Virus record (IMG/VR): IMGVR_UViG_3300008050_000158
Coordinates: 1 to 32,977 of that record
Direction: 5' to 3' (one strand)
Origin: a virus
DNA length: 32,977 nucleotides
A model generated the notes under the pieces. That model had not been told where the DNA came from. It searched no databases and saw only the letters and a program-made list of their open reading frames with translations. Positions 2,206 to 13,868 of this stretch are shown piece by piece (the stretch's first letter is position 1; each line of letters starts with the position of its first letter). The translations under genes and the position numbers were made by a program.

Positions 2206-3771
2206 CTACTTCCAGATTGCGTGTGCTTCAGGCATTTGCCATTCCATACCAGCTTCGGTGAGAATCATATCGACTCTCTTATCCGTACCAGTGTTCTCTA
2301 ACGATTGAACACCGACATAAACTGATGTGTCACGGGATACGCCATTGCCTACTAGTGGACGATACTTACAATGCTTCATGTTAATACCAACCATTTTAAC
2401 ATCAGTTCCATCTAGCATGACATGACGAGCAACATTCATATCGCCATAGAGAGTGCTGATTCTTGAAATATCAACACCAAACGATTTGGATTTTCCCATC
2501 AACGCAAAATCGGTTCTACCTAAACTATCAGCAGTGGGAGTCATTGACCCTCCTGGATTAACCATACCAACATTGTTGGAAAAGTATCCACTTAGTTTAT
2601 GTAGCCAATTGTATACTGCCGTTGAACAGAAGAACACAGTTGCTTGTGAATCATTATAGCGAGGGTCTACTAAGTTGCTTAAATCATCAAGAAAGGCATC
2701 CTGAGATTTAGTTGCTAAATTCATTGAGAAAATGTTACCATTATTCACAATAAAATCTATTGCACCTTGAGTATAGCCTACGCTATCTACATTTGCTTGA
2801 GAACCAAAGAGCAAGGATTGTTCAACATCCCATTTATGCTCAATCAGTTTTTCACGCCAGATTCTAGCCCACTCATTTGCTTCGTACTTCAATACTGTAG
2901 CACGAGCCGTGTTTGTCATACCGAATTCAGTACGCCAAATCTGAGTTTGCCCATAACCGGTTGAGAAAGGCTGGTCATTCCATGTTTCGTCAGCGAGTTG
3001 TGAACCTTCACCATAAGCACTACCAACAACATATGAGCGATAGCCTTCTAATGCACCTGCGATAGACTTATCATAAACACCTTCATATGGTTTGTTTGAT
3101 GTGAATGATGTTAATTCTGCCTTAGGTGCATTGACTGCGCCAGAAACAATATTAGCAGTGACTTTCACACATGAATGTGCGCCCTCTGAACCACCAGAAG
3201 GTGTATATGTTTCGTTTGCTGCTGCCGCAACTGCGCTGACTCTCGCCAATACATAATCATTGGGAACGCCACCGCCAGCCGTATGCGAAATTGGGATTTT
3301 GATTATTTGATTCTTAAGAAAAAAGTTTGGTGCAGTATCTGCTGCTCCAATTTTTATTTCTCCACTAGCCTGCCCGTAAACATTTTGAATGTTTCCTTGA
3401 GGGTAGTAATCGCCTGCCATAAAAAGCTGTAGTTCGTCACCTTGAGAAAGGTTGCTTGAGCCACCTGCCTCCTTTAATGTAGCATCACCAAATTGTTTTG
3501 ATGATGTGTTGTAACCAACTACATAGGCATAGCGTTTATGGAAAGATGGTCGTCTTTCCGTGAATTTGAAACTTGGGTCGTCAGTAGGATTCTTCCCAAC
3601 CTTCGATAAAAATCGAAAGAAAGGGGTCTGAGCTATCGCCAGTTCGGATACCCTGTCACCAAAATTATACTTTCTGCGAAGTACACCAGTGTTTAGGTCT
3701 GAACCCGCGGAACCCGGAGAATCTACATCAGCTAAGTTCCAATTACTTAGTTGTAATGGTGTTGTAGCCAT
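2206..3771 (-). CDS. Major capsid protein (predicted)
   Basis: This 521-residue protein starts MATTPLQLSNWNLAD. A basic N-terminal region (about 28-85, including GVLRRKYNFGDRVSEL) is followed by mixed alpha/beta sequence ending AGMEWQMPEAHAIWK. It is assigned as the shell protein from three facts: it follows portal and scaffold in canonical order, its length suits a large HK97-fold capsid subunit without a cleaved delta domain, and a strong terminator sits right behind it as expected for the most abundant virion protein. An AAGGAG ribosome site lies 7 nt before the ATG. No single residue motif proves the fold; a structure prediction would settle it. Confidence 0.75.
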   Translation of the reverse strand: MATTPLQLSNWNLADVDSPGSAGSDLNTGVLRRKYNFGDRVSELAIAQTPFFRFLSKVGKNPTDDPSFKFTERRPSFHKRYAYVVGYNTSSKQFGDATLKEAGGSSNLSQGDELQLFMAGDYYPQGNIQNVYGQASGEIKIGAADTAPNFFLKNQIIKIPISHTAGGGVPNDYVLARVSAVAAAANETYTPSGGSEGAHSCVKVTANIVSGAVNAPKAELTSFTSNKPYEGVYDKSIAGALEGYRSYVVGSAYGEGSQLADETWNDQPFSTGYGQTQIWRTEFGMTNTARATVLKYEANEWARIWREKLIEHKWDVEQSLLFGSQANVDSVGYTQGAIDFIVNNGNIFSMNLATKSQDAFLDDLSNLVDPRYNDSQATVFFCSTAVYNWLHKLSGYFSNNVGMVNPGGSMTPTADSLGRTDFALMGKSKSFGVDISRISTLYGDMNVARHVMLDGTDVKMVGINMKHCKYRPLVGNGVSRDTSVYVGVQSLENTGTDKRVDMILTEAGMEWQMPEAHAIWK

Positions 3772-3791
3772 TTTGTTGACTCCTTATGAGT

Positions 3792-4637
3792 TTATTGATT
3801 CCATAGATTTTCTAACCCTTCTTTCAGCATGGTATCAAATATAGCATCTTCTACTGTTTCTTCGGTTGTTGCCGATGCGCCTGTTCCCGCTAATGATTGA
3901 GGCTTTTGCCTTACATTTTGCATTTGAGTCGCAACTTCTTTCCGTGTCTCTGTAGCAATAGTTTCATCTCTAGATTCTCTGTTCATAAGGTAAAAAATGT
4001 CATCATAATTAAGAGGTCTACTTTTAGCAAATTCCATGAATTCTGTAAAAGCTTCATCAGTTAGACCGTGCCTGTCTTTAAAAGACTGCTGGTCTTGCTG
4101 TATTTGTCGTCCACTTTCTTGCTGCTGTAATTTCCCATTTACGATTTTATTAACCTTATCATTTACAATAGAATCAAAGACTTTTGCTGATTCAGACTTA
4201 GGGTCGGAAAAGGCTTCATCTGGGTCGAAGACGAAATCCTCAGAAACTCCAAGTCTATCTTTGATGCCTTGCTGTTTTGTACCGTCAAGATAATTCCTTA
4301 CTGTCTGAATTAAATTGGGGTCTTCTCGCATACGGTCTAAAAGAGGTGCATATCGCTCAAGTTCTTTATTTCGTGTGTTAAGACGTTTCGCCTCTCGGCT
4401 AGAATCTGAATATCTCTTTTGGAGCGTTTCAAGTTCGCCACCTTCTGTGGCTTCGGCAACAGGACTCGTTTGTTTCGAGGTTGTCTGCTGAGGAGGGGGA
4501 GCATCGGAAATCATCCCGTTTGCTGCTGCATCTAAATCTGCAAAAAACTCGCCTGGGTCATTTAGTCCGCTTCCCTGTGTGCCTGTTACGGCTTCTTCTA
4601 CATCAGGGCTGCTTTGCAGGTTGTCTGATTGTGTCAT
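3792..4637 (-). CDS. Scaffolding protein (predicted)
   Basis: This 281-residue acidic, Gln-rich protein lies between portal and capsid genes, the usual place for a scaffold. The N-terminal 70 residues are low complexity (Pro, Ser, Thr, Gly, including APPPQQTTSKQ). A helical segment with coiled-coil character follows at about 70-110, then charged helices, with a Gln stretch near 170-185. The C-terminus is helical (EETVEDAIFDTMLKEGLE), as in scaffolds that bind capsid subunits through a terminal helix. No Ser-His-Asp protease signature was seen, so a prohead protease fusion is unlikely. A good AAGGAG ribosome site precedes it. Assigned by context and composition. Confidence 0.65.
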   Translation of the reverse strand: MTQSDNLQSSPDVEEAVTGTQGSGLNDPGEFFADLDAAANGMISDAPPPQQTTSKQTSPVAEATEGGELETLQKRYSDSSREAKRLNTRNKELERYAPLLDRMREDPNLIQTVRNYLDGTKQQGIKDRLGVSEDFVFDPDEAFSDPKSESAKVFDSIVNDKVNKIVNGKLQQQESGRQIQQDQQSFKDRHGLTDEAFTEFMEFAKSRPLNYDDIFYLMNRESRDETIATETRKEVATQMQNVRQKPQSLAGTGASATTEETVEDAIFDTMLKEGLENLWNQ

Positions 4638-4669
4638 AGTTTACTCCTTTATGTGTGTATTTTGCAAGA

Positions 4670-6886
4670 TTATTTTTCCTGCATTTTTTCTTGTGCCTTA
4701 TCCGCCATTCTCTGACGCATGAGTTTTTGTTGTGCTTTAGATTCTAAGGCTTCACCCTGCATACCATGTTCAACTTTTCTGGACTTATCCTTAATATCTG
4801 CTTGTATAATTTGACGTTTAAGAGTTTCAATGGTTCCATCTCTATCTTTTAATTCACCTTCAAGCCCATCAACCTGAGATTTCAATTGAGAGTATATTGA
4901 TTTTCTCTTGAGAATTTGGTCTTTACCTCGAACATCTGTCTCTGCCAACATAGCAATATCGTCAATAAGACCAGATTGATACCATCTAAAATATTCTTCA
5001 AGTAATGCCCATCTATTTACTGGCATAGATGACCCTGCTACTACCCTTACATCGAATGAAGCACCAGCATAATCATTAAATTTTTCTATAGAATTCCCCA
5101 AATCATTATAGATAGGAACATTAATTGCCACCTCTCTATCTTCTTGAATTGCACTAGGCTGAACAATTCTAAATACTTTATGTGCTTTATACGTCTGCTG
5201 TGCGGTCTGCATAAATACTCTACCTAAATGCTCCAATGCAGGTTCAACAATGGTTTGCATCCACGCTTTTATCCTTCGTGTTCCATGCTCGTCTTGGGCG
5301 AGTAGACCTCGATATGTTTCATGCTGCGCACCAGTATCCCCCTGCATTGAAGAGTAAATACCAGAAATATACTCCATATCCTGCTTCCCCTCTTGAACCG
5401 TAGCGAAGAAAGCATTATTTATAGGTAGCGGCTGAACGGGGGTCGGAGGAGCAAACCCTTGTCTATATTTCAGTAACGCACCGGGAGCGGAAGAGTATTG
5501 CTCCCATTCTGCCTCTGGGACTGAACCCTCTTCATAAATCCATCTAAGATTCGATGCTAAATTTGCATTATGAATCATAAGTTGATGAGATTTATTAATT
5601 TCCTGTTGCTTACCGATAAGTGGAAGAACGGCAGACATTGGATATGGAGTTCCTGTCCACATATAAGGTATCGGTATCAAAGGGTAATCCGCAATTGGTA
5701 ATGCTGTTTCAAATAATAATGTTTCTGCCCCAAGAGAAACGCTAAGTCTAATCCTAGTATCATAAAACTTAACAGCCTCAACAATGGTCTTCTTTAGTAG
5801 TGGGTCTGCTAAAAATAAATCATATTCTTCTTGAGTCATAACCTGTTGTTCTATTTGATTTGATGACTCTTCTATTTCAGCTTCTAATTGGGCTTTAAAT
5901 TGTTCTAGTTGTTGAGTCATCTCTCTCTGAGCTTTTTCAATTTCTATCTTAGCTCTCTCTGGTATAATTTCGCCTTGAGCTGCCAACATCTGCATTTCCT
6001 GCGCCTTCTCTTTAAAGGCGACTTGAAGCTCTTGTTCTCTTAATGCAATTTGTTCTTCCGCTTGTTGTTTCATTTCCTGTACATTTGTTACGCCCGGAGG
6101 AAGTTGAATAAATACATTATATAATACGTATTTCTCCTTGCTATAACATTCATAATAATCAATAACAGGTTCTTGCTCTGAACTCATTGGGTCATAAGCC
6201 TCTGCGCCAATATCAGAAGGCTGAATACTATCTGAAGTCAGAGTGTCTCTAGCACTTGTCATAAAGCCACTAGATTGATTATTACTTGTAGCGGCTTTAA
6301 TAATCTTATTTTTTAACTCAGGAAATAAATTAATTAAATTAGTTTTAGATATATCTTTCTTAATTATAATATATGTAGCATCTCTCATTAAGAAATCCCT
6401 AGCCATAGGGTCTACATAAACATCAAATGGTTCTATTCTTTTATATACAACCTCTCCCATACCTCTATCCATATCGGGGTCTATGTCAATTTGAAACCAA
6501 CCTACTCCCTTAATCAACGCATCTTGTATAATGTGTGCGTACAAAGAATCTCCATTGGATAAATGCCAACAATAATCTGCTATATCTGCGTGTACACCAG
6601 CTATCTCAGTATCGCTACCCTCTGAAGCTACTGCTTGCCATCTAGGAGTTTTAGACGTACAGAAATATTTCATCATCTCTATAACGGGGGTAATCCTATT
6701 AATAGTAAATGTAGGCATCCCAGATTCCTCTAAGACCCTTTGTTCTTTTTCTGTCAGTTGGTCATTGTGGTAAAAGTCAAAACATTTTTGAGCCTGCGAT
6801 TCCCATTTGGAACGCCATGCGCCAGTGGACTTTTGGAACAGCTGGTAAACACTTTCGGCTTTCTTCTTATTACTTATTTTTGGCAT
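4670..6886 (-). CDS. Portal protein
   Basis: This 738-residue protein forms the dodecameric DNA gate at the unique capsid vertex. The N-terminal half (about 1-260) contains a portal-like core with EPFDVYVDPMARDF near residues 155-170. A long Gln/Glu/Lys coiled coil (about 265-355) interrupts the core, and portal sequence resumes with PIPYMWTGTPYPMSAVLPLIGKQQE and YISGIYSSMQGDTGAQHETYRG. The C-terminal 60 residues are Lys/Gln/Glu-rich helices, as in portal barrels. The length matches large podovirus-type portals. The start overlaps the preceding small gene by 17 nt and has only a weak AAAGAAA ribosome site, so translation is probably coupled. Confidence 0.85.
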   Translation of the reverse strand: MPKISNKKKAESVYQLFQKSTGAWRSKWESQAQKCFDFYHNDQLTEKEQRVLEESGMPTFTINRITPVIEMMKYFCTSKTPRWQAVASEGSDTEIAGVHADIADYCWHLSNGDSLYAHIIQDALIKGVGWFQIDIDPDMDRGMGEVVYKRIEPFDVYVDPMARDFLMRDATYIIIKKDISKTNLINLFPELKNKIIKAATSNNQSSGFMTSARDTLTSDSIQPSDIGAEAYDPMSSEQEPVIDYYECYSKEKYVLYNVFIQLPPGVTNVQEMKQQAEEQIALREQELQVAFKEKAQEMQMLAAQGEIIPERAKIEIEKAQREMTQQLEQFKAQLEAEIEESSNQIEQQVMTQEEYDLFLADPLLKKTIVEAVKFYDTRIRLSVSLGAETLLFETALPIADYPLIPIPYMWTGTPYPMSAVLPLIGKQQEINKSHQLMIHNANLASNLRWIYEEGSVPEAEWEQYSSAPGALLKYRQGFAPPTPVQPLPINNAFFATVQEGKQDMEYISGIYSSMQGDTGAQHETYRGLLAQDEHGTRRIKAWMQTIVEPALEHLGRVFMQTAQQTYKAHKVFRIVQPSAIQEDREVAINVPIYNDLGNSIEKFNDYAGASFDVRVVAGSSMPVNRWALLEEYFRWYQSGLIDDIAMLAETDVRGKDQILKRKSIYSQLKSQVDGLEGELKDRDGTIETLKRQIIQADIKDKSRKVEHGMQGEALESKAQQKLMRQRMADKAQEKMQEK

Positions 6887-9269: not shown

Positions 9270-9531
9270 TTAAATGTGTTTGATATTCCTCTCCATCACC
9301 CTTCCAATTAATATACTCCCTAAGGGCATATTCAATTGAATAAATCTTTTGAAAACATGAATGTAGACCATCTTCAAGATTAACGATAGCATCTACCATT
9401 ACTTTTTTCGTTGGTTGTTTTGCTGGATTTTTCTTTTTTGCCATTGTCATATCGCTCCCTGCTTGTTGACTTTGTTCAAATACCTTGTTAAAATTTACAC
9501 CAAATTCAGTATTATTAGTTTCTTCATACAT
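9160..9531 (-). CDS. Small protein upstream of and overlapping TerL
   Basis: This 123-residue protein has a basic patch (AKKKNPAKQPTKK, about 31-43), a helical middle (VDAIVNLEDGLHSCFQKIYS) and an acidic Ser/Gly/Pro-rich disordered tail ending STPPSEE. A GGGAG ribosome site stands 7 nt before the ATG. The start lies just after the phosphoesterase stop. Its last 36 codons are read in another frame as the start of TerL. I do not recognise the family; its position between TerS-like and TerL genes suggests a packaging or regulatory accessory. Confidence 0.7.
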   Translation of the reverse strand: MYEETNNTEFGVNFNKVFEQSQQAGSDMTMAKKKNPAKQPTKKVMVDAIVNLEDGLHSCFQKIYSIEYALREYINWKGDGEEYQTHLNEQQEKRNEAAKTAAASEHSGEQSEPSGGSTPPSEE

Positions 9532-10419
9532 TTAATTCTCCCAACAGTGGATGCCTTCTTTTGAAAACTCCATAGTAACCCAACCTGTTCTTATCATGGG
9601 ATAAAATGAATATCGTGCATAATCTGCGTATCTAAGAAATGAACCACCTCTTATATACCATCTTCTTTTCATCTCTTCTGTATTATCATCTCCTATAATT
9701 AAACTATCCATAGGCTTAACATATAATTGATGATTATGACCTAAGAAGAATACATCTCCCTGACTATAAACAGCAGCCATCTTATCTAATTCTAAATCAC
9801 CATTCTTTCCACCAGACTTACCATGACCAGAAACAAGGTTATAAGAACTACCACCTACGTTAATCCTTGTATAGCCCGGCATCCTGTAATATGGAACACC
9901 CAATTCTTTTGCCAATACTTTACATACATCAAAATCTAGGATATTAAAAGAACGTATATAATCATGGTTGCCGCCCCTAATGAATAAGCACTTATCTTTT
10001 ATGGTTTCTACTAATCTTACAAACTCTAAATATTGTTCTTCTGGGGGGATATCCTGACCTCTTTGATTAATTTTATAATGAGGTGGAATTAACTCTAATA
10101 AATCACCATTGCCAAACCATCTAGCGTCATCGTCCTCTTCTATGACCTTAATCGCTTCTTCAAATTTCTTAAAATCATGCTCGACTGCTCCTACATGAAT
10201 ATCAGTAAGACCATGTATCCTTACCCTTTTTCCACCATCTATTTCTAATATATCCCCAGGCTCGACAGACTTTAATTCGTGTAAAACATTAACATTAATC
10301 TGTATAGAAAAATATCTATGACAATCTGCACATCTAAATTCCTGAGTCCTATTCCCAGATACCAGTATTTTTGTGCCATTTTTCTTTGTACGTAATGAAT
10401 TACACTTAGGGCATCTCAA
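9532..10419 (-). CDS. Calcineurin-like metallophosphoesterase with N-terminal zinc ribbon
   Basis: This 295-residue enzyme has two parts. An N-terminal zinc ribbon has Cys3/Cys6 (CPKC) and Cys30/Cys33 (CADC). A metallophosphoesterase core carries the di-metal motifs in order: LTDIHVGA (73-75 DxH), GNGD (103-106), GGNHD (149-153), SGHGKS (198-200) and LGHNHQ (227-230). Such enzymes cleave phosphodiesters or phosphomonoesters; the substrate here is unknown, and the ribbon suggests a nucleic acid target. I place the start at TTG 10419, six nt after a GGAGG ribosome site; a longer TTG start at 10443 is possible but has no such site. The gene sits between TerS-like and TerL genes, an unusual place for this family. 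Confidence 0.85.
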   Translation of the reverse strand: MRCPKCNSLRTKKNGTKILVSGNRTQEFRCADCHRYFSIQINVNVLHELKSVEPGDILEIDGGKRVRIHGLTDIHVGAVEHDFKKFEEAIKVIEEDDDARWFGNGDLLELIPPHYKINQRGQDIPPEEQYLEFVRLVETIKDKCLFIRGGNHDYIRSFNILDFDVCKVLAKELGVPYYRMPGYTRINVGGSSYNLVSGHGKSGGKNGDLELDKMAAVYSQGDVFFLGHNHQLYVKPMDSLIIGDDNTEEMKRRWYIRGGSFLRYADYARYSFYPMIRTGWVTMEFSKEGIHCWEN

Positions 10420-11194
10420 CAGGCACCTCCGTATTATCTGCAAGAGAAGGACGACTAGCCGCTTCTAACTGGTCTTGACTAAACCCTTGAAATAATCCCA
10501 CAACACCTGTTTCAATTTTCTTTGTTCCCCCCAACGTACCGATTGCTTTGCCTAATTCTTTTACTGCTTGTAATTGTATGTTATCATCACCAGAGTTTTC
10601 AGCTAAACACTTTAATGACCTTAGTATATATCTATGGTCTACTCCTAATTCTTTAGCTACTTCTAATGCGCTTGCTTCTATTTCTTGCATGATTCTCCTC
10701 TGCTTTAATAATATTGCTGCCTTCTTAGTCGCCTTCCCTTCGTCCTTTTCGTTAAAAGACCTCATATACGATTTAACAGCAGATGTTCCCGTGACTAAAT
10801 GAGTTGCGAATTCCTTTTCTTTATGTGTTGCTTTCTTTCTCTTATAAACACGGCTATTTGTATTCTTTATTTTAGTGGAGAATGTGTAGCGATTAGGATG
10901 CTTATCAAAATCAGTATCCATGATAGCCTTATCAGAAACAAGGAATGTACCGACAACAGTTCTACACCAGCCTTTATTAAGTGTATAATTCGGTCTATCA
11001 TTTGGATGTGTAATATTGTGAGAAACTTTTAATAATTGAATTACTCCTTTGTCATCTGCGACAACCCAGTCGCCTTCTTCGCCTTCTCTCCAATTCTTTT
11101 TAGGGACAGGTGCTTTGTTCCCAAAATGGGAATAATATTCATTTAGGTCAGAAAAAACGAGATGCTTTATCCCCTTAATCTTTTTATGCTTCAT
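10406..11194 (-). CDS. Terminase small subunit-like protein (predicted)
   Basis: This 262-residue protein has a unique N-terminal region (about 1-115, rich in aromatic and charged residues). A segment resembling the DNA-binding helices of TerS proteins follows: KEKEFATHLVTGTSAVKSYM, then KKAAILLKQRRIMQEIE (about 125-175), the layout in which a helix-turn-helix precedes a clash-free short helix. A second helical region, LGVDHRYILRSLKCLAE, follows. The C-terminus is acidic and Pro-rich. TerS recognises packaging-start DNA and loads TerL. The location upstream of TerL supports this, although two genes intervene. The start is ATGA-coupled to the previous gene. An unusually long TerS or another DNA-binding protein remain alternatives. 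Confidence 0.6.
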   Translation of the reverse strand: MKHKKIKGIKHLVFSDLNEYYSHFGNKAPVPKKNWREGEEGDWVVADDKGVIQLLKVSHNITHPNDRPNYTLNKGWCRTVVGTFLVSDKAIMDTDFDKHPNRYTFSTKIKNTNSRVYKRKKATHKEKEFATHLVTGTSAVKSYMRSFNEKDEGKATKKAAILLKQRRIMQEIEASALEVAKELGVDHRYILRSLKCLAENSGDDNIQLQAVKELGKAIGTLGGTKKIETGVVGLFQGFSQDQLEAASRPSLADNTEVPVEMP

Positions 11195-12242: not shown

Positions 12243-12572
12243 ATGAGCGCTATGGCAGACTATCGTATCCTCGAAGTCTTTATGTTAATTGACAACAAAC
12301 CAGTACCAGTAACATTACGTGTAGGTAATCCTATCTATGAACTTAGTGATGGTACAGAAGTACACGCGGTTTGTTTTCAGCGGGCTAACGGTACACTTGG
12401 CAAGACTACCCTTTGGACACCAGAGTACATTGAACAGTTAGAGACAGTCTCTTCTGATTATGTAGAAACGGTGAAACTTGCGGATAGCGATGTTAAAGGT
12501 GCAACTTCTGATTCTCTTCCTATTGAATCGGAACCACCCTCTGAACCAATTGCTGAGACTTCAACAGGTTAA
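12243..12572 (+). CDS. First rightward gene, small acidic protein
   Basis: This 109-residue protein has a beta-rich N-terminal half (YRILEVFMLIDNKPVPVTLR) and an acidic Ser/Pro-rich disordered C-terminal third (IESEPPSEPIAETSTG). AAGGA lies 7 nt before the ATG; a second in-frame ATG at 12252 is too far from it. As the first gene behind the early promoter, a host-takeover or regulatory role is plausible but unproven. The leader words TAACTAAAGGA and CTATGGCAGAC recur at the gene starting at 14085. Confidence 0.65.
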   Translation: MSAMADYRILEVFMLIDNKPVPVTLRVGNPIYELSDGTEVHAVCFQRANGTLGKTTLWTPEYIEQLETVSSDYVETVKLADSDVKGATSDSLPIESEPPSEPIAETSTG

Positions 12573-12589
12573 CATTACTTGTTATCGAT

Positions 12590-12645
12590 GGATTCAAGGC
12601 TTGAGACGACACTATCACATTTAAACGTCGTCTTGAGCCAAATCC
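12590..12645 (+). other. Long hairpin after the first early gene
   Basis: GGATT plus a 13-nt arm (12590-12610, with CAA unpaired) folds onto GTCGTCTTGAGCC plus AATCC (12627-12645) around a 16-nt loop. This gives 18 pairs, two of them G-U when read as plus-strand RNA and mismatched on the other strand. It starts 18 nt beyond the stop codon of the first early gene. The downstream tract is only mildly T-rich (TTTATTTGGTTT), so it is either an imperfect terminator, an mRNA 3'-end stabiliser, or a processing signal. Confidence 0.6.
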
Positions 12646-12748
12646 ACATTTATTTGGTTTAAAACTTGTGTGCTTCGCACCCTTATCTATTTAACTACAT
12701 TCATTCATTCTATAATAGTATAATTTTAATCATAACATGGGCTAACAC

Positions 12749-12901
12749 ATGAAACACAGATGGTTCTTTCCAATACTACGGCATTACGGCTTTAGACATT
12801 GGTATCATCACACAGATAATGGTCAAATATTTACATTATGGCTATTGTTTGCGTCAATTGGAGTTATTATAATGCTCCTTCTCAAGTTAATGATATTATG
12901 A
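12749..12901 (+). CDS. Candidate 50-residue single-pass membrane protein
   Basis: A 50-codon frame encodes a His/Arg/aromatic-rich head (MKHRWFFPILRHYGFRHWYH) followed by one membrane helix, FTLWLLFASIGVIIMLLL, and a short basic end. Two TATAAT boxes (12711-12716 and 12719-12724) lie just upstream, although no good -35 is seen. A proper ribosome site is missing, which lowers confidence. The helix quality and lack of nearby alternatives support it being translated. Function unknown. Confidence 0.4.
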   Translation: MKHRWFFPILRHYGFRHWYHHTDNGQIFTLWLLFASIGVIIMLLLKLMIL

Positions 12902-12931
12902 CTTGGCAGTAGTGCCTATAACAGGTTTTAC

Positions 12932-12965
12932 AAGCTTTTCCCTAACATAAATAAAAGCTTCTTTT
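12932..12965 (+). terminator. Possible terminator or first stem of the structured RNA
   Basis: AAGCTTTT (12932-12939) pairs perfectly with AAAAGCTT (12953-12960) across a 13-nt loop, and CTTTT follows. It is AT-rich and therefore a weak terminator; it may separate the small membrane gene from the folded RNA, or be that RNA's 5' stem. Confidence 0.4.
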
Positions 12966-12989
12966 AGTATTGTATTCTATACCATGTCA

Positions 12990-13765
12990 ACTAGGTAGCA
13001 TCCATTCTTTTCAAGATTGATTGTAAGCCTACCTATTTTATTACAGGCAAGACACAGCAAAGCCAGTTAGCTACTAGGTTCAGTGATGGTATCTTAAATG
13101 ATATCTTAGACGTAAGAGACTATGTTGAAACAACTACGGTTATCCATAGTTCGAGTGTCTTGTCTTTAGTTTGGGGATTATCAAATACTTGTTAGTAAAC
13201 AGATGTCGAATCGAGTAAAGTATGAAGTAGCGCACTTCTTAATGACTAAAATAGTCAGCGTAATCCACTATTTTTTCTTCCAGAGTATAATAAATACTCA
13301 ACAATATTTGATGCAGTGTATAGTCTTTGCTTCTAGAGTAAAGGATATATGCGTTGTAATTCACTAGGATAATATCTACTCTCAACCGAGGCGGGTACTA
13401 GTGGTAGGGAACTGGTGAGCCAAAAGCACCAGATAGACTAAAAAGGGGCTAATGTTCTGTCTATGGTGTAATGCCTGACCTATAAGTGTGAAACTCTAAA
13501 AGACGAAGTCTTGGTGAGATGGTATACAGATACGGGGAGTGTAGTCCTCAATCGTATCAATGGTTTAAATCCTGAGAGCTTAAGCTGATGTGAATCGGCA
13601 TAGTTTTGAATGATGATAGGTCTAACCCACCCAAGTCATAGGATGTAGAGTAATCTTAGCGACCTGTATAAACATGACCTGAAAGGGCATAAAACCAAAC
13701 TACTTCACATTGGAAGGTAAGAGTTAAGACTTAAGTCTAACTACTCAGCGACAAGCTTCCTTACA
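12990..13765 (+). ncRNA. Large multi-domain structured RNA (GOLLD-like candidate)
   Basis: About 0.8 kb with stops in all frames and no plausible gene folds into many nested helices. Helix pairs: 12992-12998/13029-13035; 13046-13055/13155-13164 (10 bp, enclosing 13088-13093/13100-13105, 13119-13123/13146-13150 and 13124-13127/13131-13134); 13175-13180/13261-13266 (enclosing 13224-13228/13234-13238 and 13243-13248/13252-13257); 13283-13288/13294-13299; 13335-13340/13377-13382 with 13344-13348/13372-13376; 13412-13417/13427-13432; 13433-13438/13459-13464; 13500-13504/13508-13512; 13529-13534/13553-13558 with an inner stem; 13584-13589/13594-13599 capped by a GNRA loop (GTGA); 13618-13622/13661-13665; 13712-13716/13756-13760. 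Several contain G-U pairs only on the plus strand, fixing orientation. The 5' boundary may extend to 12905. Size, ornate fold and phage location recall GOLLD RNA; I cannot confirm family membership by eye. Confidence 0.75.
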
Positions 13766-13868
13766 GCATCGAAATCTTTCTTTAATCACTAATAAGGAGT
13801 ATGTCTTCATACATTTTATTAAAAGACACCTTGCGTGTCGCAAACTCGAATACTTACTTCGAGAAATA

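Follow-up and report, generated by a model that had tools for sequence, protein, structure and literature searches.

The window analysed here, an IMG/VR virus record of 32,977 bases, belongs to an uncultured phage and raises the question of what is encoded at the junction between its packaging and structural arm and its replication arm, where about 0.8 kb appears to be free of genes. The left arm, on the minus strand, contains terminase and portal genes and a weak match to a major head protein, while the right arm, on the plus strand, contains ParB-like, Cas4-like, DnaB-type helicase and Holliday resolvase genes. The initial annotation had interpreted this region as a single large structured RNA, either a divergent GOLLD or ROOL or a member of a new class. 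In our analysis the locus almost certainly encodes conserved structured RNA, and the reading we favor, with a probability of roughly 0.7, is that the plus strand of 12992-13773 specifies a modular noncoding RNA composed of separately inherited folded modules.

The absence of genes was confirmed. Between 12573 and 13744 neither strand contains an open reading frame of at least 60 aa, and the gene-free stretch proper spans 12902-13868, bounded by two small ORFs with conserved counterparts in relatives. The upstream ORF has its homologue in L006 at 3762-3860, directly upstream of GOLLD (tblastn 59% over 34 aa), and the downstream ORF has 93% amino acid identity in L097 (DNA 91.6% identical over 251 nt). 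The proposed limits of the RNA, 12990-13765, are accurate to within about 10 nt, M1 starting at 12992 and D ending at 13773. The features of the locus are as follows:

12749-12901, plus strand: small ORF of 50 aa, immediately preceding the RNA locus
12992-13036, plus strand: M1, a 42-nt hairpin with an invariant core and a freely covarying outer stem
13037-13174, plus strand: M2′, a predicted 138-nt closed multi-helix domain, closing helix GCAAGACAC/GUGUCUUGU
13175-13266, plus strand: M3, a 92-nt cloverleaf-like RNA with a closing helix and three arms
13286-13303, plus strand: short hairpin GAGUAU/AUACUC between M3 and D, folding in the window and in L002
13307-13773, plus strand: D, a 467-nt closed domain of about 25 helices, predicted closing helix UUUGAUGC/GCAUCGAA
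13413-13431, plus strand: D helix UGGUG/CACCA, with compensatory changes in L004
13632-13681, plus strand: D helix CAGUCAU../..AUGACUG, A-U replaced by G-C in L004
13712-13760, plus strand: D helix GGAAG/CUUCC, G-C flipped to C-G in L002 and L004
13721-13746, plus strand: D helix GAGU/ACUC, U-A replaced by G-C in L002
13869-14045, plus strand: ORF of 58 aa that ends the gene-free stretch and also follows the RNA island of L097/L099

One side of the short hairpin at 13286-13303 is shorter in L004. We also noticed a hairpin at 12590-12650, after the ORF 12243-12572, whose stem is rewritten in L004 with pairing kept (window GGCTTGAGACGAC..GTCGTCTTGAGCC; L004 GGCTTGTGGTG..CACCATGAGCC).

Three sister contigs were obtained from one protein search, and more distant relatives from additional protein searches and from scanning with short DNA patterns. 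Over the full 776 nt the fold has a z-score of −1.41 for the plus strand (0 of 20 shuffles as good) vs +0.50 for the minus strand; M1, M2′ and D taken singly score better (−2.40 to −2.68). Such a folding energy is by itself unimpressive for 776 nt, and the decisive evidence is covariation: comparison with related phages reveals compensatory changes in M1, M3 and D, which supports the proposal of a large structured noncoding phage RNA.

The M1 core, CAUUCUUUYCAAGAUUGAU, is almost invariant (the same core served as a search pattern). Across seven homologues 96.7% of cells are paired and 6 of 13 pairs are changed on both sides, with a covariation score matched by 0 of 500 shuffles and a fold z-score of −2.68; these substitutions show that the RNA structure of M1 is conserved. 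Model R2 locates M1 in L002, L003, L004, L006, L017, L086, L087, L091, L093 and L095. It lies directly before the GOLLD body in L006 and occurs without GOLLD in L086/L087 and L091/L093/L095. No antisense target of the core was found within the window.

The alignment of M3 (model R1) comprises six sequences, from the window, L002, L095, L101, L097 and L100, in which 98.0% of cells are paired and 12 pairs are changed on both sides (0 of 500 shuffles); in slid controls the paired cells drop to 35-45%. Folded singly, five of the six sequences adopt the full arrangement; in the window copy the closing helix and two arms are preserved, but the minimum-energy fold departs from the others in the second arm. 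On the plus strand G-U pairs outnumber A-C pairs 18 to 1 and two G-U pairs are present in all six sequences, which speaks for an RNA of the plus strand. That its structure is conserved is shown by the paired changes. M3 is reminiscent of a tRNA in having three arms and a closing helix some 7 pairs long, but judged by sequence it lacks the conserved T-loop, and neither ARAGORN nor Rfam identifies a tRNA in the window. M3 is missing from L004, stands alone between genes in L095 and L101, and is found inside other RNA islands in L097 and L100; it has no DNA match in plasmids.

M2′ is predicted from folding alone (z = −2.68; 2 of 200 shuffles as good) and has been seen nowhere but in the window and a sister contig identical to it. 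M2′ and M3, which measure about 90-140 nt, correspond to the closed multi-helix domains described initially. In L002, L004 and L017 the slot 13037-13174 is occupied by a different, unrelated module, M2, which also occurs alone in L006 (3218-3297) and L098 and within another RNA island in L097. This replacement in the M2/M2′ slot, together with the loss or solitary occurrence of M3, indicates that in all likelihood modules are exchanged as units. M2, present in L002, L017, L004, L006, L097 and L098, has a hairpin with AUAAAUA after it, an arrangement also known from Pistol ribozymes. The Pistol model (RF02679) gives no match in the window or in the M2 of L097; M2 is a possible candidate for a ribozyme of a new type, the Pistol resemblance being a lead only.

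The largest module, D, folds from the window alone with 148 pairs (z = −2.40 vs shuffles), in agreement with the many nested helices proposed earlier. Its identity to L004 is 94.2%, as compared with 90.5% and 92.4% for two neighboring genes; between sister phages D is conserved as well as genes or slightly better. When the structure computed from the window alone was applied to L004, 3 compensatory pairs were found vs 0.31 expected (permutation P = 0.0026) and 6 pairs were broken vs 14.6 expected (P = 0.0004). The consensus of three homologues, in which the helix 13712-13718/13754-13760 was imposed (its two strands change in concert), retains about 25 helices, leaves 2 broken pair-cells and has compensatory changes in four helices, the three distinct sequences belonging to one lineage and being related, hence the few independent compensatory events. 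The clearest compensation is CUGGUG..CACCAG in the window vs CUGGA..UCCAG in L004. The GNRA-capped stem reported initially is indeed found at about 13680-13689, as CCU-GAAA-GGG, and reads CCC-GAAA-GGG in L004. The compensatory changes show that the structure of D is conserved among the sister phages, while its deeper helices and closing helix are predictions from three related sequences. No conserved reading frame emerged from the comparison, each of the six frames of D containing 6 to 19 stops.

Two pieces of D scanned as exact 16-mers against viral contigs gave only chance matches outside the lineage, and likewise one piece scanned against genome contigs. D is apparently a new RNA domain, otherwise unseen beyond the sister phages. 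Two 10-nt palindromes in D were weighed as possible dimer contacts and discarded, their rate being by estimate about that of chance. We also observed in L097 a 540-nt noncoding stretch (4140-4680), directly after a tRNA at 4021-4093, with a fold z-score of −1.83 and no Rfam match, which is possibly another large RNA. As regards a possible link with D, the alignment of the two has a z-score of 3.0, and model R3 scores the stretch at 7.0 bits (E = 0.63), which is not the best match of that stretch.

The RNA was compared with known families. GOLLD, the expression of which rises during lysis, and ROOL, also a large ornate RNA of phages and bacteria, were the families to which the initial annotation had assigned the locus as a possible divergent member, and this assignment was not supported by the covariance-model searches. 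None of 4227 Rfam families, including OLE, HEARO and group I/II introns, matches at E ≤ 10. The GOLLD model (RF02032; curated cut-off 150 bits, conserved 3′ region 416 nt) gives no match at E ≤ 10 in a 1.5-kb stretch, in D or in the whole record, and alignments of D with the GOLLDs of L006, L008 and L024 are no better than shuffles (z = 0.9, −0.2 and −0.3). The ROOL model (RF03087; 99.1 bits, 574 positions) likewise has no match at E ≤ 10, nor does it have one in the named control genomes, which thus provided no positive control. A 16-nt match near a conserved GOLLD stem-loop, TGATrGGTCTAACCCA, was dropped as being at chance level, and only the M1 hairpin is common to the window locus and the GOLLDs of its relatives. 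The RNA of this locus is very probably neither GOLLD nor ROOL, and for the 467-nt domain a new class is the best remaining reading.

The likeness to GOLLD lies elsewhere. Both are encoded by phages (the record contains portal, terminase and helicase genes), both measure about 800 nt with a large 3′ domain and a variable 5′ part, and both lie upstream of ParB, with M1 preceding GOLLD in L006. In contrast, a single long-range helix is predicted to close D over its 467 nt, D has no sequence or covariance-model similarity to GOLLD, and no tRNA was found in the window. GOLLDs are often near tRNAs. GOLLD assembles into a 14-mer cage in which the 5′ and 3′ regions form separate domains; its linker sometimes contains tRNAs, and what the RNA does is unknown (PMC12286853).

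The GOLLD-like setting noted initially is borne out by six relatives that carry true GOLLD upstream of ParB, their ParB being 52-70% identical to that of the window. The scores are 175.6 (L006), 173.7 (L027), 171.2 (L021), 132.1 (L007), 130 (L008), and 109.1 bits (L024), three of the six above the Rfam cut-off. L006 is the GOLLD carrier nearest the window, with ParB identity of 70% (53% for L008), and has the order homologue of ORF 12749-12901, M1, GOLLD; on the right flank of the RNA its gene order is not collinear with the window until ParB. In the ParB tree the window lineage groups with L006, L086/L087 and L097, and GOLLD is found on both sides. The GOLLDs of L006 and L008 are about 72% identical though they come from opposite sides of the tree, so that a slow divergence of GOLLD into D on the side of the window is unlikely, and exchange at the GOLLD site is the simpler reading. 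Other relatives have other contents. L025/L026 keep ParB with no large RNA there. In L097/L099, M2 and M3 are part of some 750 nt of noncoding sequence, bounded at its end by the 58-aa ORF also seen in the window. L004 has extra inserts at 4785-5015, before the RNA and closed by AGGTTGGA/TCCAACCT, and at 5665-5975, after the RNA. Annotated phages have no DNA match to the RNA stretch or to the RNA islands of the relatives, and no ParB relatives were found in genome contigs.

Several further RNAs were observed in these islands. Pistol ribozymes lie upstream of GOLLD in L008 (3552-3608) and L024 (3979-4035); L023, which is another cut of the L008 contig, has the same ribozyme. A module named M4 is common to L006 (3310-3410) and L100 (4480-4605), with the core GATGACGCAAGCGGGAGATATCCTTG, and is enclosed by a closing helix. 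In L101, nearly every intergenic gap in 9383-10725 folds into a closed structured RNA, with mononucleotide-shuffle z-scores of −3 to −7 in five of six gaps tested.

The main rival to the single-RNA reading is an island of independent short RNAs, in which M1, M2′, M3 and D are produced or cleaved off individually, D is simply the longest of them, and no giant RNA exists; we give it a considerable chance, short of an even one. Each module has its own closing helix, M1 stands alone in L086/L087 and L091/L093/L095, M3 in L095 and L101, and M2 in L098 and L006, and the Pistol ribozymes upstream of GOLLD make cleavage plausible in such islands. However, the modules lie 0-40 nt apart with no visible terminator or processing site in between, and inserted RNAs such as tRNAs also occur in known GOLLDs. 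The original picture of one giant RNA holds only in part, since the modules of the 5′ half are exchanged or missing in some phages and occur singly in others. Less probable, and in our view unlikely, is a structured leader that controls the early operon by antitermination or in a riboswitch-like manner and is not a free-standing RNA. Its location at the head of the early genes that run rightward, with small ORFs directly after it, and the invariant 19-nt core of M1, suited to a protein or ligand, are what such a leader would have, but the size is far above that of known phage leaders, modules are swapped or lost with the downstream genes unchanged (L002 vs the window), and in relatives the large RNA GOLLD occupies the site.

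A GOLLD diverged beyond recognition would share the site, a similar length, M1 in front and the 16-nt match, yet that match is at chance level, the D-GOLLD alignment does not exceed shuffles, and the covariance model is silent at E ≤ 10. Moreover, GOLLD is still recognizable in relatives farther from L006 than the window is, the L008 body retaining about 72% identity to that of L006 in spite of its more distant ParB. We regard this explanation as largely refuted and very improbable. Hardly tenable is a DNA element, that is, a replication origin or partition site with hairpins in single-stranded DNA: the ParB-like gene is 1.5 kb away and the gap between the divergent arms is AT-rich, but the 18 to 1 ratio of G-U to A-C pairs in M3 fits a plus-strand RNA and not DNA or the other strand, and L025/L026 keep ParB without such an RNA.

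We return to the modular noncoding RNA as the preferred reading. Its order would be the M1 hairpin, the M2′ domain, the M3 junction, the short hairpin and the large closed D. One transcript over the locus is predicted and is somewhat probable; it would start on the plus strand at about 12985 and be read with the downstream early genes. Promoter-like matches at the locus are at chance level only. The 5′ modules M1, M2′ and M3 would be variable passengers, like the tRNAs in some GOLLD linkers. D may do the job of GOLLD as a functional substitute, an idea to which we give somewhat less than an even chance, most likely as a self-folding scaffold and possibly as a self-assembling one. That D represents a third class of self-assembling giant RNA in phages, having replaced GOLLD at its site, is a tentative and rather doubtful proposal, and a symmetric RNA assembly, suggested by site, size and domain plan only, is slightly more doubtful still.

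If the third-class proposal is true, the site is a slot for the exchange of RNA machines and their passengers (M1-M4, tRNAs, Pistol ribozymes), and giant RNAs of unrelated origin can fulfil one function. For structural work D offers a candidate for a new class of large RNA, and M1 and M3, which recur in several phages and have no Rfam entry, are compact motifs with strong covariation. The comparison points to an exchange of entire RNA machines among phages at a single site. The functions of GOLLD and ROOL are unknown. In this phage group the same position is taken by GOLLD in some members, by an unrelated large RNA or other RNA arrays in others, and in still others by nothing large, which amounts to a swap experiment made by nature; the gains and losses that accompany each RNA would point to their common function.
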